NCBI RefSeq assembly: GCF_004354915.1
Contig: NZ_SMSI01000001.1
Span: forward strand, 620,001-684,000
Source: Pseudohoeflea suaedae
GTDB lineage: Bacteria > Pseudomonadota > Alphaproteobacteria > Rhizobiales > Rhizobiaceae
DNA length: 64,000 bases
Direction of reading: 5' to 3'
Part shown: positions 6,207 to 18,480 of the stretch, piece after piece
Layout: the number at the start of each line of letters is the position of its first letter
How positions within the stretch are numbered: position 1 is the stretch's first letter
Program-made: the position numbers and the translations under genes
The notes under the pieces: generated by a model
The model's input: the letters and a program-made list of their open reading frames with translations, nothing else
Database searches by the model: none
What the model was told of the DNA's origin: nothing

Positions 6207-6283
6207 GCACCCGTAGCTCAGCTGGATAGAGCACCAGACTACGAATCTGGGGGTCAGGAGTTCGAATCTCTTCGGGTGCGCCA
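6207..6283 (+). tRNA. tRNA-Arg (anticodon ACG)
   Basis: 77-nt cloverleaf. The acceptor stem GCACCCG pairs with CGGGTGC, the discriminator is G, and CCA is encoded. The D-arm contains AGCTCAGCTGGATAGAGC. The anticodon arm is CCAGA-CTACGAA-TCTGG with anticodon ACG. The T-loop is TTCGAAT. The gene is complete; its 3' half doubles as the left attachment site of the island. Confidence 0.98.
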
Positions 6284-6287
6284 TTTC
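6234..6287 (+). repeat. Left attachment site (attL), 54 bp
   Basis: Starts at the anticodon stem of the tRNA (CCAGACTACG...) and runs through the 3' CCA and four further bases (TTTC). It is identical to 18427-18480. Divergence begins immediately outside: CACC before and TTTTC after, here, versus CCTC before and ACGTA after, at the right copy. Confidence 0.95.
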
Positions 6288-6311
6288 TTTTCAAAGGGTT
6301 GGCTGCTGATC

Positions 6312-6965
6312 ATGAGCAACCCAGAAACTCCAGAAAATTCCGGGGGCAAATCGGGGGCAACTCGCCGTCCCGAAACTCTGTCCGAACTTCGCGCTTCGCT
6401 TGCTCCGGATCACCCATTGAGCATGTTGATGGCGGCCGATCTTTCCGAGGATCAGTACGGAGAACTTGAGGCAATAGTCTCGAGGCCGGATTGGTCGGAG
6501 GATCATCGGGAAGTATTCCGCGGACTGGTGAGGCTCGCGGTTCACAAGTATCTCGCTTTGAGTTCGATATCGGAGGGAGGCCTCGCAATCACGGAAGCTT
6601 CCGCCGGCTTGGACGAGGATCTGTCGGCGCTTGAAAAGGCTGTTGCGGTGAAGGGGAAGCACGGTTTCCCTGAGAGCTCTGATGATCAGAAAGCGCTTTC
6701 GACCCTTCGAGCCTTGCGTGAACTCATTCCGCAAACAGTTTCCAAAAAGGCTGTAGATCCGCACCGCCGGGCAGTGCGGATGTTCTGTGACGCTTTCGGT
6801 TTTGGTGCAGGGAAGCTGGTCTCAGAGTTGAAGGCGGGTTCAAAGGAACATCCCAATCCGCTTTGCAAGTTCGTTCAGAGGTCATTGGCGTTCTCCGGCA
6901 AGAACCTCGGTCATGACCAGGTCCGCGAATATGTCGCGGAGGCACTGAGAGGACCGCGCCGCTAG
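6312..6965 (+). CDS. Hypothetical island protein
   Basis: 217 aa, not recognised. A polar start (MSNPETPENSGGKSGATRRP) is followed by a mostly alpha-helical, acidic and soluble sequence with no signal peptide or membrane segment; the end is basic (LRGPRR). It is the first gene inside the island, 25 bp after attL. The putative arm sites fall in codons 10-17, so the true start could lie further in. It is separated from the alpA-like gene by about 95 bp with its own ribosome site. Confidence 0.6.
   Translation: MSNPETPENSGGKSGATRRPETLSELRASLAPDHPLSMLMAADLSEDQYGELEAIVSRPDWSEDHREVFRGLVRLAVHKYLALSSISEGGLAITEASAGLDEDLSALEKAVAVKGKHGFPESSDDQKALSTLRALRELIPQTVSKKAVDPHRRAVRMFCDAFGFGAGKLVSELKAGSKEHPNPLCKFVQRSLAFSGKNLGHDQVREYVAEALRGPRR
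6341..6360 (+). promoter_or_regulatory. Putative integrase arm-type sites, left end
   Basis: Two copies of CGGGGGCAA begin at 6341 and 6352, 11 bp apart. The right end carries CTGGGGCAA twice at the same 11-bp spacing (18280, 18291). Paired short repeats on both sides of a tRNA-type core are what tyrosine integrases use as arm sites. The pair lies inside the first codons of the adjacent reading frame. Confidence 0.5.
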
Positions 6966-7060
6966 GGGGCAGCTTCTAGTAGCTTCGGAATTTTCTCCCC
7001 CTATTTCCAACCGCTTCCTCACATCAAGCTGCACCCCATCGCAAACCGATGGAGGCAGAC

Positions 7061-7252
7061 ATGACCAACCGCATGCTACCGATCTCAGCCGTAGTAGAGG
7101 CCACGGGTCTTTCGAAGCGGACAATCTACGAAGAAATTTCCCACAATCGATTTCCTCGCCCCGTCCAGCTCACCGCGCGCCGAGTTGGCTGGCCGGAAGA
7201 ACGCATCAATGCATGGCTCGCTCAGCGCGTCAGCGAAAGCGATGCGGCATGA
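7061..7252 (+). CDS. AlpA-family DNA-binding protein (excisionase-like)
   Basis: 63 aa with the MerR-like winged helix of AlpA proteins: LPISAVVEATGLSKRTIYEE, then the wing residues FPRPVQLTARRVGWPEE and INAWLAQR. Proteins of this type act as excisionases or activators in tRNA islands. The ATG at 7061 has GGAGG five bases upstream, so the upstream in-frame ATG at 7049 is not used. It heads a run of genes overlapping by one or four bases (7061-10970), which points to one transcript. Confidence 0.85.
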   Translation: MTNRMLPISAVVEATGLSKRTIYEEISHNRFPRPVQLTARRVGWPEERINAWLAQRVSESDAA

Positions 7253-7431
7253 CCTATGAGCTTGCGCACTCGGAAGCGATCCGGAAGGCAGCGCGGTGGC
7301 TGGCGACAGCACCACGCCATGAAGTTCAGCCCGCGGCGGTGCCTGCGCTCAAGAGCCGGTTCGGCCTCACCGCGCGAGAAGCAGTGGCTGCGATACGCGA
7401 GGCGAACCTCATCAAGGCCCGTGCAGCATGA
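7249..7431 (+). CDS. Small hypothetical island protein
   Basis: 60 aa from the ATG at 7249, which overlaps the alpA-like stop by four bases (ATGA). The sequence is basic and helical, with the stretch LKSRFGLTAREAVAAIREAN that could be a short helix-turn-helix. Family not recognised. It is likely translated by coupling, and its stop overlaps the next start in the same way. Confidence 0.65.
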   Translation: MTYELAHSEAIRKAARWLATAPRHEVQPAAVPALKSRFGLTAREAVAAIREANLIKARAA

Positions 7432-7661
7432 CACTTGATCAGCATGCACCCGATCTTGAGACCACGGAAGACGATCTCTTTGAAGAGATATTCGACCAAC
7501 TGAACCGGTCCTTCGTTCGCCATGGCCTGGAGCGGATCAACGAAACAATCGCGATGACGGAAGCTCTCGCAGATGAAGACGAGCGCTTCATGCGCGCGCC
7601 GCTTCAAATGCTGAAAGCCGCCGCGCTGATGGCCCGTCTCGAGCTCGAAGGAGAGATCTGA
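7428..7661 (+). CDS. Small acidic hypothetical island protein
   Basis: 77 aa, strongly acidic at the start (ETTEDDLFEEIFDQLN) and helical throughout, ending MARLELEGEI. No family recognised. ATGA overlap with the preceding gene and a one-base overlap (TGATG) with the tape-measure-like gene place it in the same operon. By position it could be an accessory or chaperone of the next product, but nothing in the sequence shows this. Confidence 0.65.
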   Translation: MTLDQHAPDLETTEDDLFEEIFDQLNRSFVRHGLERINETIAMTEALADEDERFMRAPLQMLKAAALMARLELEGEI

Positions 7662-9799
7662 TGGCTCAAACACTGATCGGCCGGCTGCTTCTTCGCATCA
7701 AGGCGGAAGGCCTCGGCGAAGCGAACAAGGTCGCCAGCGCCATGGATCAGATCGAACGCAAGGCGCGTGCAATGGGGGCAGGGGGCATCCGTTCCTGGGG
7801 TGTCGGGTTTCAGCGACAGCTCGACAAGCTCAAGCTGACGGCCGACCAAATCGGAGAAGTTGAAAGGTCTTGGGCACGGCTCCATGAGTCGATGAAGACC
7901 AGGCGCATCGATCGCGCTCTCCGCTCCTCCGAAATCTCCCATTGGCGGACGTCAACGATCAGCCAGCTCGGAATGACCCGCGCTGCGGTTGAGGATCACT
8001 TTCGCAAGGTCGAGAAGGGAACTCGCGGCCATATCATGCGGATGAAGGACATGATGCGCGCCGGCATCATCATGGCGGGCGCCTATACCATGCCGTACCT
8101 CGCTGGCCAACTCGGATTGGAGGCGGTTGGCGCAAGTTCGGAGCGCCGCCGAGAGTTCTTCCGCCAGCGAATGGCGAACATCCCGGAAGGTGATCAGCAG
8201 AAGATTTTCGATCGCTCCCAGCAGCTCTCCGAAAAGTATCCGTCGGTGCCGATCACCGCCATCATGGAGATGGCCCGCAGCTCCTACACCACGATGGGCG
8301 GCACTGAGCGAGGGCTCGGCGTGCTCGACAAGATGGTGGAATCTTTCGTCTCTCTTCAGAGTGCTCGCGGCCTAGAGGTCGCCGGTAACATGCTGATCGG
8401 TCTCCTCCGCGGCCTCGACAATTTCGGTGTGAACAAAAGCGGCCAAGTCGGCATCGATCGCGTCAACGATCTGATTGAGGCGGCGACAAAAGGTGGGCAG
8501 ATCGATCCTGATTTTGATCCCGGCACCTATTTCACGCTTGCCCGGCGCGCGAAGGTAGCAGGTCCGGCGCTGTCGCCCGACTTCCTAGCGCGCGCGTCTG
8601 TGTACATGCAGGATATGGGGCCAGATGCCGCCGGCACTTCGCTTGCCATGGCCTTCAAGTCCTTCGTTCTCGAGGCGGTGGGATCGGCCGGCGGCAAGAA
8701 GTATCTCGCTGAGCGCAATCGCCTTGGCATTAGGGGGGAGAGCGGGCTCAACGACGCCGAACTGTTCGGCTCGGATCCCGATAAGTGGGTGGTCAAGCAC
8801 CTGATCCCGGCGCTGATCAAAGACGGTGTTGATATGAACAACGACACCGCCATCGCTACCGCAGTCGGCAAGCTTTCGGGAGCTTCAAACGCCACGGCTC
8901 TGCTCACGCGTATGGTCACCCAGCGCGAGCAAATAGAGAAGTGGCTTGAGCTTCTGGATGACGCTATGGGTACGCGGGCAGCAGGCGAAGCGCGCGGCAA
9001 CGATCCCTTCGTCGCCTGGAAAGGCTTCCTCGGGTCGATGCAAAACCTGTCCGCCGCGTTGGTCCCGATCGATTCAATCTCCGCGGGGCTGAACAATCTC
9101 GCAGATGGTATTAACGCGCTCGCACGTGCTGGCGAGGATAATCCGTTCTTGGCTGCCCTCGGCATTGGCGCCGGCACCTATGGTGCTTACAAGGGCGTCC
9201 AATGGGGTGCAGGCAAGTTCGCCGACATGTTCGGACTGAAGGCATCGGCAGTTGCGCTCGACGGCTCCGCTGCGGCCTTGACCCGGGCAGCCGTAGCGCT
9301 CGGCGGCAGCGCGGTCGCGGACGGCGTTCCGGGCGGAGGTGCGCGCAGGGCGACAAAATCACTGCTTTCAGGTCGCGGGGCGGTCGCTGCGATCCTCACC
9401 GGTGTCGTGGCCGATGGCACGCGACGGATCGTCGAGGAACTCAGCACCGACAACGCCAAAGAGGCCCGTCGTCTCGCCACGCCTCGGCAGGCTGAAGTCG
9501 AGAGCATGAAACAGCTCGAGCAAGACTATCGTGATGAGCTCATCGAGCGTCCAGTGCCGTATAAACCGAAGATCGACGATACCGAGCTCCAGTCACAGGC
9601 GACGAGTGCCGCCACAGCACTACAGGCAGCCCTCTCCGTCGTCGCAACGCCCAAGGTAAACGCGGCCTCTATTCAATCCGCCGTCGCCTTGGCGCGAGAG
9701 CTTGTGAACCTGCTCAATCAGGCCGGCACCGCTGCTGAAGCGGCGCGGTCTCGGGTCGGTGCCGAGATGCGCCGCAACTTCGCCGATGGGGGCGAATGA
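7661..9799 (+). CDS. Phage tape-measure-like protein (orphan)
   Basis: 712 aa. The start (MAQTLIGRLLLRIKAEGLGE, then MDQIERKARAMG) resembles phage tail tape-measure proteins. A hydrophobic GIIMAGAYTMPYLAGQLG segment (about 125-145) and a region recalling the TP901 core follow (TYFTLARRAKVAGPAL, SVYMQDMGPDAAGTSLAMAF). A second Ala/Gly-rich hydrophobic stretch lies around residues 490-570 and a helical tail ends it. No other tail, baseplate or capsid gene is in the island, so it is not a prophage remnant in the usual sense. It could be a modified toxin, a tail-interference protein or a satellite component. Start set by the one-base overlap with the previous stop. Confidence 0.7.
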   Translation: MAQTLIGRLLLRIKAEGLGEANKVASAMDQIERKARAMGAGGIRSWGVGFQRQLDKLKLTADQIGEVERSWARLHESMKTRRIDRALRSSEISHWRTSTISQLGMTRAAVEDHFRKVEKGTRGHIMRMKDMMRAGIIMAGAYTMPYLAGQLGLEAVGASSERRREFFRQRMANIPEGDQQKIFDRSQQLSEKYPSVPITAIMEMARSSYTTMGGTERGLGVLDKMVESFVSLQSARGLEVAGNMLIGLLRGLDNFGVNKSGQVGIDRVNDLIEAATKGGQIDPDFDPGTYFTLARRAKVAGPALSPDFLARASVYMQDMGPDAAGTSLAMAFKSFVLEAVGSAGGKKYLAERNRLGIRGESGLNDAELFGSDPDKWVVKHLIPALIKDGVDMNNDTAIATAVGKLSGASNATALLTRMVTQREQIEKWLELLDDAMGTRAAGEARGNDPFVAWKGFLGSMQNLSAALVPIDSISAGLNNLADGINALARAGEDNPFLAALGIGAGTYGAYKGVQWGAGKFADMFGLKASAVALDGSAAALTRAAVALGGSAVADGVPGGGARRATKSLLSGRGAVAAILTGVVADGTRRIVEELSTDNAKEARRLATPRQAEVESMKQLEQDYRDELIERPVPYKPKIDDTELQSQATSAATALQAALSVVATPKVNAASIQSAVALARELVNLLNQAGTAAEAARSRVGAEMRRNFADGGE

Positions 9800-10656
9800 G
9801 TGTGGCAAATTCAGTATTGAAGTCCCGGACGCGGCTAAACGAGGACGGCACCGAACACCTGCTTTTGGGACGTGCAATCCTAAAGGTGAAGCCGTCTCGG
9901 AAGCGTGCGAAACGTACCGACCACAAGTTCTCAAAAGAGATACTGCGGTTGCGTGAAATCGAGGCGGTGATCAAACATAGGCATGGGACCGACATTCCTG
10001 ATCCGGATGGAACAGATGATGCGAGCCTGTGCCTCTCCTATATCGAGGCGGCTGCGGGGGCGTGTACCGACCAGGATATGTTCCATTGGTGCCGTCGTTG
10101 GGCACCCTGGGCCTCGGCTTCAGATATTGAGCGTGTCGTCCTGCTGAGCGCAAAGCGAAGGCGGATGATACCTGCGGATAGCGTAGCCAAGATGCTCTGT
10201 CTCTCGATGAGCGAAAGGACACAACTCGGTATAAAGACGATCGGTGCTTGCGATCTCACGAAGGCAAAGCGCACCGCGCTCATGAAAGAGCGGAAACGCG
10301 AGCGTGATCGGCAGCGGCAAGAAAGGATTCGTCGTGCTGAAGGGCGTGTGGATCGCGAGTCCCACGCGGCGCAGACCTTAGCTGCAACCCAGCCTTGGAA
10401 AGCGCTCGGCATTAGTCGGAGGGCATGGTTCTATCGGCAAAAGGCAAATTGCACCGAAGTGTCGCGAATAGTATCTACTAAGGAAAGCGACACTTCAGTG
10501 CAAACCGAGCAATTTCCTCCAGTTCCCCCTTCATCGCTCTTGCCTTCCGCCGCGCGTGTAACGCCGGCCGGGGGTCTGGGGCATCAGGCCCCAGCGGGGC
10601 TCCAAGGGGCGGTGCCCCATGGGAGCCACTACATCCGATCGGAGAGCAGGTCATGA
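9796..10656 (+). CDS. Hypothetical island protein with a basic helix
   Basis: 286 aa, family not identified. Residues about 150-195 are very basic and helical (TKAKRTALMKERKRERDRQR). Next comes QPWKALGISRRAWFYRQKAN, a short helix-turn-helix-like motif that I associate with accessory proteins of alphaproteobacterial mobile elements. The Pro-rich C-terminus looks disordered. The stretch AAGACTDQDMFHWCRRWAPW has two Cys and several Trp. ATGA overlaps at both ends. A DNA-binding role in element replication or transfer is possible. Confidence 0.6.
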   Translation: MSVANSVLKSRTRLNEDGTEHLLLGRAILKVKPSRKRAKRTDHKFSKEILRLREIEAVIKHRHGTDIPDPDGTDDASLCLSYIEAAAGACTDQDMFHWCRRWAPWASASDIERVVLLSAKRRRMIPADSVAKMLCLSMSERTQLGIKTIGACDLTKAKRTALMKERKRERDRQRQERIRRAEGRVDRESHAAQTLAATQPWKALGISRRAWFYRQKANCTEVSRIVSTKESDTSVQTEQFPPVPPSSLLPSAARVTPAGGLGHQAPAGLQGAVPHGSHYIRSESRS

Positions 10657-10970
10657 ATGAGGAGCAGATGGATCTCTTCACCTACGAAAGGCGCGCCTTG
10701 CGAAGCGCCGAGGTCATCGCCTTTCCTATCGACCAGAGGCTAGTTCATATCAGGATGACAGCTCGGCAACTTGAGGTGAAAAAGGGAGAGGCGGCGGACA
10801 GGTTTTGGCGAACGGAATGCCGCCGTCTTTGGGGACGTCTTCAGGCTGAAGGCTTCTCGGAAATTGAGGTGCGAGACCAAATTGCCGAATTCGCCGAAGC
10901 GGTACATTCAGAGATGAAGCGAGCCGCTTGGGCGACGTGGAAAGCTGGAAGCCCTTCGGGGGCAGCGTAG
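10653..10970 (+). CDS. DUF6074-like small protein
   Basis: 105 aa. The opening QMDLFTYERRALRSAEVIAF matches the pattern of DUF6074 proteins in rhizobial mobile elements. It continues PIDQRLVHIRMTARQLEVKK and a helical end rich in Arg, Glu and Ala. Function unknown. It overlaps the previous gene by ATGA and is the last of the overlapping chain; the next gene is convergent. Confidence 0.65.
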   Translation: MNEEQMDLFTYERRALRSAEVIAFPIDQRLVHIRMTARQLEVKKGEAADRFWRTECRRLWGRLQAEGFSEIEVRDQIAEFAEAVHSEMKRAAWATWKAGSPSGAA

Positions 10971-11002
10971 TTCCGGCTTGGTAGCGGCCATTTGATAGCC
11001 CA

Positions 11003-11233
11003 CTACGAACGACGTAACCTGACGCCCGCGCCTTCCCCGTCATCGGCCAGAAACGTCACGCCACGGGCTTCGAGCGCAGCCTGAAGCTTGTCCCGCGTCT
11101 CCGCCTGGAGGCCGCCTTTCTCGGTCTCGTATCGGTTCACCGTTCCCGCATTTACGCCAGCGATATCGGCCAGCTCGCGGACGCCGATTTTCAAGGCCGC
11201 ACGCGCCATCCGGATTTGACTTGGAGATACCAA
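11003..11233 (-). CDS. XRE-family helix-turn-helix regulator
   Basis: About 76 aa, a Cro/CI-type DNA-binding domain: SPSQIRMARAALKIGVRELA, then DIAGVNAGTVNRYETEKGGL, then a short end LEARGVTFLADDGEG typical of single-domain element regulators. The TTG at 11231-11233 lies 8 bases after GAGG and is preferred to the GTG at 11240-11242, which abuts it. It is divergent from the gene at 11339, with palindromes between them, so it probably represses its own and the rightward promoter. Confidence 0.8.
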   Translation of the reverse strand: MVSPSQIRMARAALKIGVRELADIAGVNAGTVNRYETEKGGLQAETRDKLQAALEARGVTFLADDGEGAGVRLRRS

Positions 11234-11247
11234 AATAAACACCTCGT

Positions 11248-11311
11248 TTGAATTAATTCATACACTGTATTTACTATGAGCGAACTGTGTTCTAAATTCT
11301 TAGCACAGTGT
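11248..11311 (+). promoter_or_regulatory. Divergent control region of the XRE regulator
   Basis: A candidate rightward promoter has TTGAAT at 11248-11253 and TACTAT at 11272-11277, spacing 18. A 10-bp palindrome GAATTAATTC (11250-11259) overlaps the -35. An inverted repeat ACACTGT (11262-11268) / ACAGTGT (11305-11311) brackets the start region. AT-rich compared with the surroundings. The layout suggests XRE binding; which repeat is the operator is not known. Confidence 0.45.
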
Positions 11312-11338
11312 TTGAATAACGCCAAACGGAGATTGATC

Positions 11339-11677
11339 ATGTCCAGCCTAGCCGAGATGTTTCGCGAAGCTCACCGTGACACGCGGGTATCCCTGCGGCG
11401 GGAGTCGGCTTCCCCGATGACATATCGTGAGTGCTTCGCATGGTTTCTCAAGCTTGCATGGGCAAAGGCGAAGAAGGCGATGTTCGAAGTGAGAGCCAAG
11501 GCTGTGGCGCCGAAGCTGTTCGCTGAACTCACCGATTTGCAGCGCGGGTTTCGCTTCACGGAAATGTCCGACAACCGCTTTTACTCTTCCGGCCGCGAGA
11601 GTGCGATGCGTTCGCGTATCGCGGCGCTGGAGGCGGCTTTGGCCGTCGCCGTCTCTCAACCTCAACCCCACGCCTAA
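11339..11677 (+). CDS. Hypothetical island protein
   Basis: 112 aa from the ATG at 11339, with a CGGAGAT ribosome site. Helical and basic in the middle (KLAWAKAKKAMFEVRAKAVA), aromatic at the start (YRECFAWFLKLAW). No signal peptide. Not recognised. The small gene at 11692 has the same CGGAGAT site and probably belongs to the same transcript. Confidence 0.6.
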   Translation: MSSLAEMFREAHRDTRVSLRRESASPMTYRECFAWFLKLAWAKAKKAMFEVRAKAVAPKLFAELTDLQRGFRFTEMSDNRFYSSGRESAMRSRIAALEAALAVAVSQPQPHA

Positions 11678-11691
11678 ACGGAGATACCTTC

Positions 11692-11931
11692 ATGGCACCG
11701 CGATCGAAAATCGAAACCCATAGCGAAATCAGTTTGGCGCTCGCCGGGCTCGTCACTGTCTTGTGGGAACGGCTTGCCGATTCCGATGCGGACGAACCCA
11801 CGATGGCCTTGATTTCCGAAATTCAGCGCAAGGCTCGCGTAGCGCTCGATCAGGCGGTCGAGCTTGAAGAGCTCCAGTACTGCGATCTCAACGCGTCCAT
11901 GACGCCTGCGCGTCCCGTCGCGATCCAGTAG
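11692..11931 (+). CDS. Hypothetical small acidic protein
   Basis: 79 aa, helical and acidic, with an amphipathic stretch LALAGLVTVLWERLADSDAD. Start ATG 11692 after CGGAGATACCTTC. No family recognised. It lies 14 bp after the previous gene and is the last gene before a 370-bp gap. Confidence 0.55.
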   Translation: MAPRSKIETHSEISLALAGLVTVLWERLADSDADEPTMALISEIQRKARVALDQAVELEELQYCDLNASMTPARPVAIQ

Positions 11932-12302
11932 CAGCATGCCGGCGCGTTAGCGCCACCTACCCTGCCTCGTGGGCCGTACAGGCCGCACGCCGCGTCCACC
12001 ATGCTCGCCACCCTTCAAGACAGCTAAGTCGCTAATCGCTCTCCTACGAGGGCGGCACAGCACGTTTAGGGACCGTATCCCGCTTGTGCCGCTCGCGGGG
12101 CGCAGCCTCGCGGCATATCGTCCGGATTCTCTTTGCCCTAGGGGGAACCGCCGCCGACAATCATTAATGGGTCGCCATCCTGCAGAGCGGATCGCTTGAA
12201 ATTATGAGCTGCCAATACCTTGGCAACACATCGTATACGGGGTTAAATCTAAAAGTATGTAAAATTACGATTGCAAGAAATTTGCCCATGATTGGGGAGT
12301 AG
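11932..12302. other. Intergenic region upstream of the GHKL/methyltransferase cargo
   Basis: 371 bp with no gene. The left part is GC-rich, while the last 120 bp (from about 12180) are AT-rich, as expected for the promoter of the cargo genes. GGGGAG directly precedes the GHKL start. The change in composition may mark a cargo junction. I see no clear palindrome. Confidence 0.5.
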
Positions 12303-14210
12303 ATGTCAGCTGTTCCAGTTGAAAGCGAAAAGATCCACAGGGCCCAGATATTAGGCGAGCGCATACGGCAATCTGTGGAAGGTGAGGCGCTAGAACTCCC
12401 TCTCAACACCAGCCAACGCATAATCGCGCGGGTCACTGATGGTATTTATCGCGAACCGTGGGCAGCCTTCAGAGAGCTGTGTGCGAACGCGTATGATGCC
12501 GACGCAACGCGAGTGGTAATCGAAACCGGCGCGCCAGAATTTGATCAAATTACAATTCGCGATGATGGCGCGGGCATGTCTCCCGAGACGCTAGCCTTCG
12601 TTGTTGAAAATATAGGTGGCAGTAGTAAGCGCACAACCGAAGGGCCAATGCTACATACCGCGAGTGAGGGCGATCCGGACTTCAGTCCTGGCGGTCGACC
12701 TCTAATCGGCAAAATCGGTATTGGCTTATTCGCCGTCGCTCAGCTTACACAGCATTTTCAAATTATTACCAAAGCTCGCGGCGAGAATGTCCGATCGTGG
12801 GCCACTGTAATTTTGAAAACGCATAATGAGTCCAGGCTGAAGGACAAACCTCCTGGCTCCGAGTTTGAAGCTGGCCGAGTCAAAATTCGGTCGGAGGAGG
12901 TCCCGGATGCAGAAGTGGATGCGCATGGAACAACCATCATTCTACATGAGCTTCGACCGGAGATTCGCAGATTGCTGCAAAGCACGAATATGTGGCAGGC
13001 TCAGGCTGAGCGCGGGCCTAACGACGAACCGATTTTACCGCCCCCGACCTATCACATTGGACGACGTCAGGATGAAAAGCGCGGGCTCACCCATCTCGAC
13101 GCTAATCTTCCTTGGAAGGATGGCTTAGAACCGCTGGATCAATTTCGAGAACTCGTGCGTGCAGCCTCGGAAACTGACGCGAGCTCTAAGAAGGGAGCTT
13201 CGCTCGAGCAGCTCGACGAATATCTCCGGTCTATATGGAAATTAAGCCTTTCACTGCCGCTGCAATATATCGATCAGCACCCATTCGAGACTACCGGCGA
13301 CTCAGGAATTATCTTTCTAGAGGTGCCGCGCACGAACAAACGGGCCGAAATCACAAAGCTTGCGATTGATGAGACTGTAAGGGAGCATTTCGGGCTCGTT
13401 TCAGGGAAGACCGACAGTGTTGATAGGTTCGATGTGGAGTTCGATGGAATTCTCCTGCGTAGACCTATCAAGTTGCCAGCAGAGTTGGCCGTTCCGTCAC
13501 GCCTCCCGGCGCCTGTTATGATGGTGGGTAGCGAAATCGCACCTTTCCCGGAAACTTCGTTGGACCGTGCTGGCGGTGTTCTAAGGTTCGAGGCTTATCT
13601 CTATTGGAATAGTAGGATTACGCCAAAAGACATCCAAGGATCGATAATCCGCGTCCGCGAAGCAAGCGGGACATTATTTGACGCCCGTTTCGCAGATTAT
13701 CAAGTCTCAGAGCAGAGCCGTCTCCGGCAGATTACTGCTGAGATATTCGTACTTGAGGGCTTGGATGGTGCGATAAACATCGACAGAGAATCGTTCAACT
13801 ACAGTCACCCGCATTACATCTACATTCAAAAATGGCTGCACCGAGCGCTCAGGCTACTCGCCAACCGCCTTAAACATATCGCTGGCGAAGATCTTGAGAG
13901 AGAACGCCGCGAGCAAAAGACACAGACGGCCGAAGCTACACTTCAATCGGCGTATGACATCTGGACTTCCCGGCGCGGCGCCGAGGCAGATCCTCCTTTT
14001 CGTAAGACCGAAATTCCTCAGTTGCCAGCAGCCGTGGCGGAAGCTTCGATGGTGTGGAAGCAAGAGCCCGCCGCCGACCACGTGACGCTGGCCACCTCCA
14101 TATCGGTCGTTCTCGAGGCTTACGGAGTGTTGTCTGATCTCAGGCAGGAGGAGCGAGCAGAACTAGTTAACGATCTTATAAAGGTGATGCAAACTCATGG
14201 CATCAAGTGA
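12303..14210 (+). CDS. GHKL-fold (Hsp90/MutL/MORC-type) ATPase
   Basis: 635 aa. The N-terminal 250 residues carry the Bergerat ATP site. The N-box is FRELCANAYDADATRV (catalytic Glu and Mg-binding Asn), the G1 box is IRDDGAGMSPETLAFV, and the G2 box is PLIGKIGIGLFAVAQL after a SSKRT turn. The remainder is a MutL/MORC-like transducer and helical tail with basic-acidic repeats near residues 525-550. No nuclease, histidine-kinase or HNH motif is visible. GHKL ATPases of this class are known beside DNA methyltransferases in restriction-like systems (prokaryotic MORC/MutL relatives). ATG at 12303 after GGGGAG. The 3' end overlaps the next gene by 14 bp, so the two products are probably partners. 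Lower GC than the flanks indicates transfer. Confidence 0.85.
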   Translation: MSAVPVESEKIHRAQILGERIRQSVEGEALELPLNTSQRIIARVTDGIYREPWAAFRELCANAYDADATRVVIETGAPEFDQITIRDDGAGMSPETLAFVVENIGGSSKRTTEGPMLHTASEGDPDFSPGGRPLIGKIGIGLFAVAQLTQHFQIITKARGENVRSWATVILKTHNESRLKDKPPGSEFEAGRVKIRSEEVPDAEVDAHGTTIILHELRPEIRRLLQSTNMWQAQAERGPNDEPILPPPTYHIGRRQDEKRGLTHLDANLPWKDGLEPLDQFRELVRAASETDASSKKGASLEQLDEYLRSIWKLSLSLPLQYIDQHPFETTGDSGIIFLEVPRTNKRAEITKLAIDETVREHFGLVSGKTDSVDRFDVEFDGILLRRPIKLPAELAVPSRLPAPVMMVGSEIAPFPETSLDRAGGVLRFEAYLYWNSRITPKDIQGSIIRVREASGTLFDARFADYQVSEQSRLRQITAEIFVLEGLDGAINIDRESFNYSHPHYIYIQKWLHRALRLLANRLKHIAGEDLERERREQKTQTAEATLQSAYDIWTSRRGAEADPPFRKTEIPQLPAAVAEASMVWKQEPAADHVTLATSISVVLEAYGVLSDLRQEERAELVNDLIKVMQTHGIK

Positions 14211-15492
14211 GGGGCCGGAAGATTTTGGCGTCGAGTTGGCGGAAGATTCCCTGCCTGCGACAGTAAGCACCGACGCGGTGCCAATCCGCCTAAACCACCT
14301 CTTTCCATGGCACCGTCCGAGGAAGCAGAAGGTCCGCCGAGACCAATGGGTCGGTTTGGCAAACACGCTTGTTCGGAAGCTGAAGCAGCAAAATGTCTTG
14401 GCGCCGAAACAGATGACGTTGCCCGACGGTAGTTCTTTCCAGCAAGCGCCAGAGATACGCTATCTAACCCTTCCAGGGCTCGACTATCTCGACGTTCGGC
14501 TCATCGGGGAAATGTGTGGCGATAATGATTGCAAGCTGGAAAGCGTGGGCTTTCTCAGCGACGCCGAAGACTCAGCCATGATGGCGCGCGCGCGGGTTAG
14601 GGAGACATCCCTGATACAGGCTGGGTATATCATGGATACCTCGTTGACGCTTCCTCGCAGCATTGAATCTATCTGCAATACTACAAGCGGAACACTAAAC
14701 GAGTTAAAGCGGCGTGCACCTTTTCACATCATTAACATTGACGCTTGTGGCTCCATCGCGCCCACGAGAGCGACCCATTCACGGCGCCTGATAGACGCAA
14801 TTTTCCGTTTGGTCGAGCTTCAGCTCGGCAAGGCTAATCATCGCTGGCTATTGTTCGTCACTGTTGATGCTCGCGACGACAATCTTGACGCCGATACGTT
14901 CGAGGCACTTTGCAACGCGGTTAGAGAGAATGCGAAGGCGAACGCAGATTTTGAGCTAGGCGCCATTGCATTTTTGAACGGCGAGGCGACTGAGCTTGAA
15001 GGCGCCATTGAGTCGTCAAAAACTGACGGACGCCCGTTTCTAAATATGTTCTCGCTTGGGTTTGCGAAATGGCTCTTACATTTGGCCGAAGTGAAACAAT
15101 GGTCGATCAAGCTCAAACGATCTCATTGCTATTCGACAAGGCCGACCGAAGATGCTTCACCTTCCATGGTCTCGCTTGCATTCGAGTTTCTTCCGCCGCC
15201 CGTGGGGCTTGTGGACCCACACAGTGTATCGAGGCAAAAACCGTCGCCGGGTGGCTCCACGAACAACCCGTCAATGCAGATTTTGGAAGGGGCAAGTCAG
15301 ATCGACGATTTGGATGCACTTCTCGAGGCGGATGCAGAACTCAGCGTTGAATTGAACGCTGCTACGCATTCGCTACTGATAGAGGCTGGCTATGAAATCG
15401 ACACACTATCGCCTCTAGTTGCAGAAGCAGTCGCGGGGCAGGCTACGCCGCCTCATCGTTTTCCAGACCTTCTTCAGGCGAAAGGTGCTTGA
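14197..15492 (+). CDS. Uncharacterised partner of the GHKL ATPase
   Basis: 431 aa, no domain I can name with confidence. After a polar start comes NHLFPWHRPRKQKVRRDQWV, then EIRYLTLPGLDYLDVRLIGE and later APFHIINIDACGSIAP. The alternating beta/helix pattern and the IINIDACGS strand-end recall motif IV (DPPxG-like) of Rossmann methyltransferases such as Trm1-like or three-Cys-motif partner proteins. No clear SAM-binding glycine loop is seen, so it may be an inactive or different Rossmann protein. The C-terminus is acidic. It starts 14 bp inside the GHKL gene and its last 50 bp overlap the convergent methyltransferase gene. I suspect homologues exist beside similar ATPase/methyltransferase pairs in Pseudomonas islands but cannot check. 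Confidence 0.75.
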   Translation: MASSEGPEDFGVELAEDSLPATVSTDAVPIRLNHLFPWHRPRKQKVRRDQWVGLANTLVRKLKQQNVLAPKQMTLPDGSSFQQAPEIRYLTLPGLDYLDVRLIGEMCGDNDCKLESVGFLSDAEDSAMMARARVRETSLIQAGYIMDTSLTLPRSIESICNTTSGTLNELKRRAPFHIINIDACGSIAPTRATHSRRLIDAIFRLVELQLGKANHRWLLFVTVDARDDNLDADTFEALCNAVRENAKANADFELGAIAFLNGEATELEGAIESSKTDGRPFLNMFSLGFAKWLLHLAEVKQWSIKLKRSHCYSTRPTEDASPSMVSLAFEFLPPPVGLVDPHSVSRQKPSPGGSTNNPSMQILEGASQIDDLDALLEADAELSVELNAATHSLLIEAGYEIDTLSPLVAEAVAGQATPPHRFPDLLQAKGA

Positions 15493-16462
15493 GTAGGCTT
15501 CTTGCAACGGCCTCAGCCATTGACGGCGGGACGGCCTCGCTCACTTGGTCGATTTGCGACGATAGCGACCCGAGAAGCTCGTATGAGTGCGGAAATCCCT
15601 GCAGTAGCATCGCTTCATACACGCTTAGTCGGCGGTGGCAGTCTGGATGAACATGGACTTCGCGATGGCCATAGGCGACGGTAATGCTCGGCTTTTCCCA
15701 TGCCAGTGTCTTAAAACTGCGGTTGCTGCTGTCTCCCGAGCGCAAACTACCATTCTTGAACCGAGCTGACCGAGGAGCCATGCACCAATGATTACGGTGG
15801 TAAGGAAAAGCTGACGGATTAGCGTTCTTTGAGTAATAGAACGGCTCTGGAAGCCCCCTAAGAACCGTAGAAATTGCGGGTCCCCTCTCCACTTCAGGTG
15901 ATTTTTCTGGTCCCGGCCACACCGTCTCGCCGAGCAGAGACTTATTTAAACCGACGATGAACAGACGCTCGCGCTTCTGAGGGGTGCCGTAGTCTGCCGC
16001 GTTTAAGAGCTGTTCGGAAACAAAAAAGCCCGCATCAGCTAGCGCATCCTTGAAGATGATCAGTCTGTGAGCATGCAGTTCACTGCGGAGACCTTTAACA
16101 TTCTCCATAACGAAGAAACTGACAGGGTTGCGCGCGTTGAGCTTTTTTAGAAGCTTCGCATAAACGAGTGGTAGCTGATGTCGTGGGTCGGTTTCCGTAA
16201 TGGCGCGATTGGCTTGGCTGAAGCTCTGACAGGGTGGTCCGCCAATAACGCCTTCTGGCGCAAATTCGGAGCCCCATAAGTCATCGAGCTTTTCGAGTGT
16301 GAGATCGTTCACGTCGAAACAATGACCGTGCTTGTCAGTTCGATTATGGTTGTAGGTGCGAACGCTATCTGCCTTCTTGTCGAAGGCTAAGCCGATCTCG
16401 AAATTGGCGTTCTCAAACCCCAGATCCATACCGCCGGCGCCGCAAAAAAGGCTCAGTAGCAA
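15443..16462 (-). CDS. DNA (cytosine-5)-methyltransferase
   Basis: 339 aa, full length for a small C5 methylase. Motif I SLFCGAGGMDLGFENA lies at the very N-terminus. Motif IV GGPPCQSFSQANR holds the catalytic Cys. Motif VI is VMENVKGL, motif VIII DYGTPQKRERLFIVG, and motif X lies near VPPSMAEAVARSLL. The region about 200-260 (PFYYSKNANPSAFPYHRNHW) would be the target-recognition domain; the target sequence is unknown. The start is a TTG at 16460-16462 with AGAGGAG seven bases upstream. No Vsr or classical restriction endonuclease is adjacent. It converges on, and overlaps by 50 bp, the 431-aa partner gene. Confidence 0.94.
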   Translation of the reverse strand: MLLSLFCGAGGMDLGFENANFEIGLAFDKKADSVRTYNHNRTDKHGHCFDVNDLTLEKLDDLWGSEFAPEGVIGGPPCQSFSQANRAITETDPRHQLPLVYAKLLKKLNARNPVSFFVMENVKGLRSELHAHRLIIFKDALADAGFFVSEQLLNAADYGTPQKRERLFIVGLNKSLLGETVWPGPEKSPEVERGPAISTVLRGLPEPFYYSKNANPSAFPYHRNHWCMAPRSARFKNGSLRSGDSSNRSFKTLAWEKPSITVAYGHREVHVHPDCHRRLSVYEAMLLQGFPHSYELLGSLSSQIDQVSEAVPPSMAEAVARSLLKHLSPEEGLENDEAA

Positions 16463-16627
16463 ATGTTCACTCCTCTGCGCCTGCGGCGGTGCTTCTCGCG
16501 AGTTCGAAGGTTAGCCCGGTTTTGACTTGGAATCCAGAACATTGGGGGGCACTACGCCGCCGTCCAGCGGAGATCTTGCATATCGCATTTCCCTGCATGA
16601 GTGGCGCATGGTGTACCGCTTAAAGTA

Positions 16628-16966
16628 TCAGTTCTCAGTGGTAAATGACTGAAGCGTCCACAGGCATCGCATTTCGCTGGCAGGTCGAAGGCATTGCAGT
16701 CCGAGGACTTCCAGATCCTCTCGATATACAATCTGTCCTGCTTTGAACTCACGGCAAAGATCGAAAATCACCGCATTAGTGATCGCCTTCGTCAATGCTT
16801 CCCGGTCCCCCTCGATAGAGTAGGTAAACAGCTTCTCCGCATAGTGTTTGTCAAAGCACCCTAGGCCGCTCTTGGTTATTTTAATGGGGTCGGAATGCGC
16901 TGTCGATGTAGTCATCCCTATCGCCATTATGGAGAAAGCTACAGCCGGGATGAAATTGCATCTCAT
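16628..16966 (-). CDS. Small secreted hypothetical protein
   Basis: 112 aa with a plausible signal peptide: MRC start, hydrophobic FIPAVAFSIMAIGM, likely cut near STAHS-DP. The mature part has four Cys and the motif GDREALTKAITNAVIFDLCR followed by FKAGQIVYRED. This resembles small periplasmic hypothetical proteins common in rhizobia. Its start overlaps the integrase stop by four bases, so it is probably translated from the integrase transcript. Function unknown. Confidence 0.55.
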   Translation of the reverse strand: MRCNFIPAVAFSIMAIGMTTSTAHSDPIKITKSGLGCFDKHYAEKLFTYSIEGDREALTKAITNAVIFDLCREFKAGQIVYREDLEVLGLQCLRPASEMRCLWTLQSFTTEN

Positions 16967-18270
16967 GAAGATCGCTCTACTGACGTTAGCGGGATCACAT
17001 TTTCAGACCGGCTTTCACCGCTGACGATCTCGGTCAAAAGCGCGCCCCATGCGTCTAGGGCGCGGCGTTTCTCGGCGAGGTAATCGTAAAGGTCATAGTG
17101 GCGGCCGGTGACGACGGCGGAGCCGCCCGTGTCGCCGCTGTGAGCCAGAACCTGGGAAACGACAAACCGCGGGATCCCGATCCGTTCGCTGGTCAGGTTC
17201 GTTGCCCCGGTGCGCCGAAAATCGTGAGGTGTCGCGCGAGGGATCTTCAGAGCGCTGGTCAGTCGGCTCATGGCGCGCGTGAACGCGTGCCGGTCGAAGT
17301 GTCCCCTTTCCTCGGCGCTGGATTTGAAGACATGCCCTTCTGCGCCCATCGCTTCCTTTGCTTTGAACAGCAAACCGGTCGCGATATCGCTCAGGGGGAC
17401 AACGTGCGGACGCTTTCCTTTCATGCGGGTGGCTGGCACGGTCCAAAGCCGTCTGTCCAGATCGATTTCGTCCCAATGCGCACCAATCACCTCGCCGCCG
17501 CGCTGTAGGGTTGCGAGAGCGAAGCGGAGAGCAATTCCCATTTCGATGGACAGTGCAAGCTTCTCCACCGCGCCCGGCTGTGCGCAGGCGCGCCAGATCG
17601 CGCGGATTTCGTCATCGTCCAGCACCCTCTCTCGAGGCGTCGGGGTGATCACGGCGATATCGTGGGCTGGGTTGGCGGGGATCAGGTCTTTGGAGAGAGC
17701 GTAGCTCATGAGCTGCCGAATGACGTTCCGAGCGTGCCGGCCGTTCGACGGGGCCTTCTTTGAGAGCCGCGAAACCAGCGCCTGGATGTCCGCCCGTTTG
17801 ATGTCGGCAAGGGGTAGGGCGCCCATGTCCTTCTTGATCAGCTTGTCGAAAACCCGGCGTTCCTCGCGGAGCGTCGAGTCCCGCTTGGCTCCGCGGGCGT
17901 TGGGGCGGTGAAGTCCTAGTGTGGCATCTGCGAAGTAGGATTCGGCGAGCCCCTCCAGCGTTCTCAGGCGCTTCGTCATTGCCTCAGCGCGCGCCAGTCG
18001 GGTATCTTGAACGAGATCCGCGCCTCCGGCGACCGCGCCTTTGATCTTACGAGCCTCTTCGCGCGCTCTGGAAAGCGAGATCGACGGAAAGGGGCCTATC
18101 GACTTGCGCCGGTGTTCGCCGGATGCGTTCACGTAGCGAACGGACCAAGAGCGTTTGCCCTTTTCCGTCACCCGAAAGATCAGGCCGGATTCCTCATCAT
18201 CACGCAACTCGAGCCTTTTGCCTTTCTCAGGCATCGATCGCTTGAGGAGGTCAGTCGTCAACTTGGCCAC
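16963..18270 (-). CDS. int: Tyrosine site-specific recombinase (integrase, P4-type)
   Basis: 435 aa. The N-terminal DUF4102-type arm-binding domain (LELRDDEESGLIFRVTEKGK, RRKSIGPFPSISLSRAREEA) is followed by a SAM-like core-binding domain and the catalytic domain. Visible catalytic residues: Arg in ATLQRGGEVIGAHW, Lys in RMKGKRPHVVPLS, His-x-x-Arg in TPHDFRRTGATNL, His in VSQVLAHSGDTGG, and Tyr in GRHYDLYDYLAEKRRAL. It reads inward from the right border; its 5' end is 157 bp from attR. It should integrate the island at the tRNA-Arg 3' end. Full length and intact, so the island may still be mobile. Confidence 0.95.
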   Translation of the reverse strand: MAKLTTDLLKRSMPEKGKRLELRDDEESGLIFRVTEKGKRSWSVRYVNASGEHRRKSIGPFPSISLSRAREEARKIKGAVAGGADLVQDTRLARAEAMTKRLRTLEGLAESYFADATLGLHRPNARGAKRDSTLREERRVFDKLIKKDMGALPLADIKRADIQALVSRLSKKAPSNGRHARNVIRQLMSYALSKDLIPANPAHDIAVITPTPRERVLDDDEIRAIWRACAQPGAVEKLALSIEMGIALRFALATLQRGGEVIGAHWDEIDLDRRLWTVPATRMKGKRPHVVPLSDIATGLLFKAKEAMGAEGHVFKSSAEERGHFDRHAFTRAMSRLTSALKIPRATPHDFRRTGATNLTSERIGIPRFVVSQVLAHSGDTGGSAVVTGRHYDLYDYLAEKRRALDAWGALLTEIVSGESRSENVIPLTSVERSS

Positions 18271-18279
18271 TCAAAACTC

Positions 18280-18300
18280 CTGGGGCAATTCTGGGGCAAT
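18280..18300 (+). promoter_or_regulatory. Putative integrase arm-type sites, right end
   Basis: CTGGGGCAA at 18280 and again at 18291, 11 bp apart, same orientation and spacing as CGGGGGCAA at 6341 and 6352. They lie just upstream of the integrase start, so they could also serve in autoregulation of int. Confidence 0.5.
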
Positions 18301-18426
18301 AGATATCCGCTCTCTTTTGCATTAGTTTGCACTCTACTGCACCCTACGCGAGATCGCAATTGTCGAATAAACAAGGAGTTAGAAGTTGAACGCCATCTAC
18401 CAGCATTCGCCTGCACAGAATGACCT

Positions 18427-18480
18427 CCAGACTACGAATCTGGGGGTCAGGAGTTCGAATCTCTTCGGGTGCGCCATTTC
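18427..18480 (+). repeat. Right attachment site (attR), 54 bp
   Basis: Perfect copy of 6234-6287: anticodon arm, variable arm, T-arm and 3' acceptor strand of tRNA-Arg. The 5' half of the tRNA is absent here, so this is not a second tRNA gene. Confidence 0.95.

Follow-up and report, generated by a model that had tools for sequence, protein, structure and literature searches.

The window, the whole stretch of 64,000 nucleotides of Pseudohoeflea suaedae DNA that was analysed here, contains three overlapping genes in a region where the GC content is 51-55% (across 12-17 kb), against 56-70% elsewhere in the window. The genes code for an ATPase, a partner protein and a DNA methylase, and together with the surrounding features they are arranged as follows:

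6207-6283: tRNA-Arg (ACG)
6229-6287, forward strand: attL, one copy of a 59-nt direct repeat, in the 3' part of and just past tRNA-Arg
7049-7252, forward strand: AlpA-type regulator (Phage_AlpA, 5.8e-12)
12303-14210, forward strand: GHKL+S5 ATPase (paraMORC-like), 635 aa
14197-15492, forward strand: partner protein of the PP_RS20740 family, 431 aa
15443-16462, reverse strand: C5-cytosine DNA methyltransferase, 339 aa, motifs intact
16963-18270, reverse strand: tyrosine integrase (Phage_integrase 8.3e-18, Arm-DNA-bind_3 7.2e-14)
18422-18480, forward strand: attR, the other copy of the 59-nt repeat, 97% identical

An earlier note on this DNA, made from the sequence alone, described three intact genes at these positions, and our open reading frame coordinates agree with it: the partner overlaps the ATPase by 14 bp, and the methylase, convergent with the partner, overlaps it by 50 bp. 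The ATG of the ATPase is preceded by GGGGAG and the TTG start of the methylase has GAGGAG just upstream, both being plausible start contexts; promoter and terminator scans returned chance level only.

The integrase gene adjoins the second repeat copy (18422-18480). With the att repeats, the integrase and the AlpA-type regulator all in place, a complete 12.2-kb integrative element (6229-18480) sits in tRNA-Arg and carries the trio. The same note had placed the genes in lower-GC cargo of a tRNA island, and all the signs of it are present, namely the GC drop, the tRNA-Arg, the repeat pair, the integrase and AlpA. The partner family did not turn up in the three congeners and the 17 other relatives searched, and the right flank is too poorly conserved in the congeners to reveal an empty site. 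The element also holds a 712-aa open reading frame (7661-9799) with no convincing family match and a small gene of the DUF6074 family (10653-10970, 1.2e-22).

The three proteins

The methylase matches the DNA_methylase profile (1.9e-54), possesses the PPCQ and ENV motifs and the C-terminal motif of C5 methyltransferases, and a profile built from it and its relatives aligns to M.HaeIII over the full length, in line with the intact cytosine-5 methylase that had been noticed before. The ATPase matches Pfam HATPase_c_3 (4.9e-14). Its N-box (E58..N62), G1 box (D87xG89xG91) and G2 box (G136xxG139xG141), earlier called intact, consist of residues that are kept in 17 homologues. R495, which lies in the motif NIDRES[FY]N, is invariant among the 17 sequences and, by analogy with Hsp90, may serve as an arginine finger; it is followed by an HPH motif (502-504), invariant in 17/17 ATPases and also found in a distant locus, L011, discussed below.

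The structures of the ATPase and the partner were predicted by AlphaFold as monomers from alignments that leave out the homologues from the genome profile searches. The ATPase model (pLDDT 76, pTM 0.75) resembled Hsc82 (an Hsp90), MORC3, MutL and topoisomerase VI-B, with VIA-align Z scores of 17.5, 17.1, 15.6 and 14.6, respectively, and the Hsp90/MORC/MutL-like region covers about residues 1-529 or 30-529. The tail (503-635) is predicted to form a long helix followed by short helices, with no recognised effector domain. Proteins of the paraMORC kind combine a GHKL domain having all of its motifs with an S5 domain and reside in restriction-modification neighbourhoods. Here the motifs are present in the 17 sequences, the fold match of the model extends across both domains, a C5 methylase is a neighbour in 24/24 loci and a Vsr gene in 5. 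Judging by the predicted fold, the ATPase is a GHKL+S5 protein of paraMORC kind with the Hsp90/MORC/MutL architecture.

The partner is a member of NCBIfam NF047698, the PP_RS20740 family (273.9 bits, with a curated cut-off of 200), for which the open-licence literature gave neither a function nor a fold or a gene context. The partner had no credible match in Pfam, PADLOC or PHROGs, and its comparison by sequence with solved structures gave nothing meaningful. Its predicted model (19 sequences, pLDDT 82.5, pTM 0.83) has the strand and helix order of a class I methyltransferase (Rossmann-like), with the tRNA methyltransferase Trm1 (3axs) as the top structural match (Z 14.4, 230 aligned residues, 4.2 A) and the DNA methylase M.BseCI within the top 50 (Z 11.6), both of them nucleic acid-binding enzymes. 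The SAM signature is missing: the glycine-rich GxGxG is gone, with GxG in the motif I window in 0/25 partner homologues, most of which read Y-[LF]-[STG]-L-P-G-x-D-x-[LFI]-D at this place. Motif IV is N-[ILM]-D-[ALF]-C (NxDxC) in 25/25, with no DPPY. The invariant residues of the 25 partners are W38, K43, R47, W51, Y89, L92 and D99, and also G118, N180, D182, C184, Q209, T222 and Y312. From the lost motif and the predicted fold we infer that the partner has probably kept a methyltransferase fold but lost the usual mode of SAM binding. We rejected an origin of the partner by duplication of the adjacent methylase gene, since comparison of their profiles gave a probability of only 0.2% for a relation.

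Recurrence of the trio and exchange of the methylase

The partner family is rare. It was found in 2/398 genomes of a phylum sample, 6/397 genomes of an order sample (one of the six under the NF047698 cut-off) and 1/368 genomes of a second class; the samples are partial, and those of the phylum and the order overlap and both include the genome of the window itself. All strong members with readable flanks (L003, which is Stappia sediminis, L008, L009, L010 and L017) have the same ATPase next to them, and a C5 methylase as well. In IMG/VR, where a two-sequence alignment and single-partner scans found nothing, a seven-sequence alignment recovered the partner at 19 loci; the ATPase was found with strong matches at 18, mostly on shared contigs. 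INPHARED phages and PLSDB plasmids held no close relatives of the partner, and for the ATPase they gave ATPase-domain matches only.

In all 24 loci where the ATPase and the partner are visible with flanks (the window, L003, L008-L010, L017 and 18 IMG/VR contigs), a C5 methylase accompanies them, although several of these loci are closely related, so that independent cases are fewer than 24. The order methylase, ATPase, partner is seen in 18/24, with intergenic gaps mostly of -4 to +12 bp, and a convergent methylase in the other 6. Two more partner loci (L026 and L028) end at a contig edge, and across the loci with flanks no ATPase-partner pair was seen without any methylase. Given this recurrence, the arrangement is not a matter of chance. 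The earlier note had proposed a neighbourhood search, to be read against a defence system if homologues of the three genes never co-occurred elsewhere or if the methylase were an orphan; what the search brought is a trio in at least 24 bacterial or IMG/VR loci and a methylase genetically linked to the ATPase pair in every one of the 24.

A distant 25th pair (L011, 4990-9111), whose partner is about 21-22% identical to that of the window and falls under the NF047698 cut-off, has an N6/N4 amino-methylase directly upstream (Pfam N6_N4_Mtase, 4.3e-12). It stands where the other loci have their C5 enzyme, which suggests that a methylase is required but need not be of one kind.

Vsr repairs mismatches left by deaminated 5-methylcytosine and accompanies other C5 methylase systems. 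A Vsr gene flanks 5 of the 24 trio loci and was not found in the window, so that Vsr as an obligatory effector was rejected.

Pairwise identities of the ATPase and the partner over 18 loci are correlated with r 0.95, compared to 0.74 for ATPase and methylase and 0.78 for partner and methylase, and none of 2000 permutations reached the observed values. Rank correlations are lower (0.53, 0.27 and 0.55, respectively) because most pairs of loci are about equally distant. The methylase of the window is closest to that of L008 (66%), whose ATPase and partner are just 38% and 27% identical to those of the window, whereas the nearest ATPase, that of L003 (56%), goes with a methylase of 50% identity. 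Likewise L038 has its nearest ATPase in L045 and its nearest methylase in L032. The ATPase and the partner show tight co-evolution, and the mismatched neighbours indicate that these two form a stable core, with the methylase as an exchangeable yet constant third part.

Two of the loci differ in their make-up. In L038 (1273-12266) the trio, a second and different C5 methylase, a Vsr gene and an integrase share one 97-kb contig. In L030 (2246-4230) the ATPase gene is divided into two open reading frames by a stop or a frameshift, so at least that copy looks inactivated or misassembled.

A proposed methylation-guarded module and its alternatives

A connection of MORC/MutL-type GHKL ATPases with restriction systems was drawn from genome context in 2008, and the relevant passages of Iyer et al. 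(PMC2292703) report MORC and paraMORC ATPases in restriction-modification-like loci with C5 methylases; the earlier note had likewise placed MORC/MutL-type ATPases in restriction-like loci. Those loci share with ours the GHKL+S5 ATPase, the cytosine methylase, sometimes Vsr, and mobile DNA; they differ in that the same passages describe no fixed partner with a methyltransferase fold. Iyer et al. also propose there a metal-dependent active site at a conserved HxH motif that follows S5 in paraMORC5 (PMC2292703); the HPH of our ATPase may be this motif, paraMORC5 being compared by its description only. The BbrUII/HgiDII restriction-enzyme family (NF050001) aligns to the GHKL domain of the ATPase (5e-16, residues 54-223), and a C5 methylase adjoins in relatives; the score of 58.3 bits is far under the family cut-off of 550, nothing aligned past the ATPase domain, and the trio has an extra partner gene. 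In PADLOC the partner has no model, and the ATPase domain gives a weak match to type II restriction enzymes. VcSduA (Shedu type I-D/paraMORC3) likewise joins a GHKL ATPase to a defence effector, its defence being shown by plating and needing a nuclease residue (PMC12137116); it differs in having its own DUF4263 PD-(D/E)XK nuclease, of a kind not found in the trio, and in that the relevant passages of that paper describe no methylase. Neither the ATPase nor the partner has a Pfam match to the Shedu DUF4263/SduA_C domain.

The weaker matches of the ATPase (L059-L066, and the plasmid-borne L012 and L014) likewise have a C5 methylase next to the GHKL ATPase, and in several cases Vsr too; they may be regarded as sister systems, tied to the trio via the ATPase domain only and with domains compared partly by eye. 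The sister ATPases scanned match NF050001 under its cut-off. At their C-termini L064 and L065 have weak SduA_C/PD-(D/E)XK-like matches, L060 and L063 have Ymh, and TIGR02391 occurs also in L062. Since the GHKL domain and the methylase are shared, and the ATPase of the trio lacks an effector domain and comes with a separate protein, the most economical view is that this protein, the partner, probably fills the C-terminal effector place of the sister systems.

We consider it rather probable that the trio is a restriction-type, methylation-guarded and ATP-driven defence module of mobile elements. The C5 methylase would mark the host's own copies of the target site, and the GHKL+S5 ATPase would dimerise on ATP binding and act as a DNA-engaging switch. 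Unmarked target DNA would license the ATPase, and ATP-driven closure on such DNA would in turn license the partner, which would execute the response, as the effector or as the site-reading half of an effector complex, replacing the domains (PD-(D/E)XK-like, HEPN, SpbK-like) that are fused to the ATPase in the sister systems. A bolder version, which we put forward only tentatively, makes the partner a new restriction effector that has abandoned SAM and uses the invariant site D99/N180-D182-C184, with K43 and R47, for some other chemistry, with DNA, RNA or a nucleotide as its substrate, when the GHKL ATPase detects DNA without 5-methylcytosine. The open-licence literature offered no plating, methylation or biochemical data for any member of the trio. 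The sole published phenotype found there for the partner family, a tolerance to furfural seen in Pseudomonas putida strains in which a V338F variant is overexpressed (PMC9630843), is not predicted by the restriction-type model and counts against it.

The alternatives overlap in part with this restriction-type reading. The earlier note saw no nuclease motif, and our Pfam and NCBIfam searches of all three proteins likewise found no motif of a nuclease or another effector, which would suit a pair that does not cut at all and instead closes around unmarked DNA in a MORC-like manner, for compaction or silencing, with the partner as a DNA-reading or loading subunit. The model of the ATPase resembles MORC3/MORC2 and Hsp90 no less closely than MutL, and the partner has the predicted fold of nucleic acid-binding enzymes (Trm1, M.BseCI); yet the sister GHKL-C5 methylase systems carry nuclease or toxin-like C-terminal domains, and the defence by VcSduA requires its nuclease residue, according to the relevant part of PMC12137116, so that we find this option unlikely. 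The partner could also be an abortive effector that is switched on by the ATPase sensing unmarked DNA and attacks RNA or a nucleotide rather than the invading DNA. Its best structural match is a tRNA methyltransferase (Trm1, Z 14.4), HEPN (predicted RNase) and SpbK-like domains occupy the same place in sister ATPases, and Anantharaman et al. 2013 found Ymh/HEPN-paraMORC fusions in restriction loci and proposed them as PrrC/RloC analogues (PMC3710099). A fold match at 10% identity, however, says nothing of the substrate, and the SAM signature has been lost, which leaves this effector a low probability.

A nuclease hidden in the ATPase itself is a sub-case of the restriction-type reading, in which HPH 502-504 would be a metal-dependent site and the partner only a site reader. 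The invariance of HPH in 17/17 ATPases, its presence in L011 and the paraMORC5 proposal, as given in the relevant part of PMC2292703, speak for it; but HPH lies at the junction of S5 and the tail helix, where sister ATPases with a C-terminal domain of their own have other residues (compared by eye), so that it may be structural, and no nuclease fold matched the region. We regard such a site as improbable. Much the same doubt applies to a trio outside defence altogether, where an orphan or self-protecting methylase of a mobile element would be served by a helper ATPase, whether to evade host restriction or in regulation or replication. Phages commonly carry orphan methylases, many copies of the trio are on contigs classed as viral (IMG/VR), and no model for the partner exists in the defence library searched (PADLOC). 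Against it, a methylase acting alone would have no use for the tightly coupled pair of ATPase and partner that is present in 24/24 loci, swaps of the methylase with the pair kept constant fit a logic of marked and unmarked DNA, and related ATPases match a restriction-enzyme family.

Novelty and related loci

The earlier note called the trio a candidate undescribed defence system. This was too strong, as the GHKL/C5 kind was described by Iyer et al. in 2008 and NCBIfam already groups the partner; what stands as new is the fixed trio, the methyltransferase-like fold predicted for the partner, the exchange of the methylase and the trio's position among related systems whose C-terminal domains have been swapped. 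In the poorly explored field of how MORC/MutL-type ATPases engage DNA marks and which responses they trigger, a small trio, recurrent in proteobacteria and mobile elements and having exchangeable methylases and a variable effector place, makes the reading of absent methylation by GHKL proteins a testable matter. For the PP_RS20740 family, present in the much-used laboratory species Pseudomonas putida, the results offer a fold by prediction and a pathway to which it probably belongs.

Some of the related loci are worth recording in their own right. L060, L062 and L063 encode Ymh/TIGR02391 (HEPN-like) fusions beside C5 methylases, with Vsr also in L060 and L063. In L059 (7980-11493) a GHKL ATPase with an SpbK-like (TIR-type) C-terminal match precedes genes for Vsr and a C5 methylase, possibly a fused toxin version of the same logic. 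An Agrobacterium plasmid (L013, 4956-10609) carries a GHKL ATPase, a 433-aa second protein, an AbiE-type pair, Vsr and a C5 methylase, and resembles the HEF_HK/Response_reg_2 loci (PMC8011034). The latter share with the trio a paraMORC-like ATPase, a second protein and a C5 methylase, along with Vsr, and differ in that their second protein is response-regulator-like and their ATPase has an extra histidine-kinase-like region.
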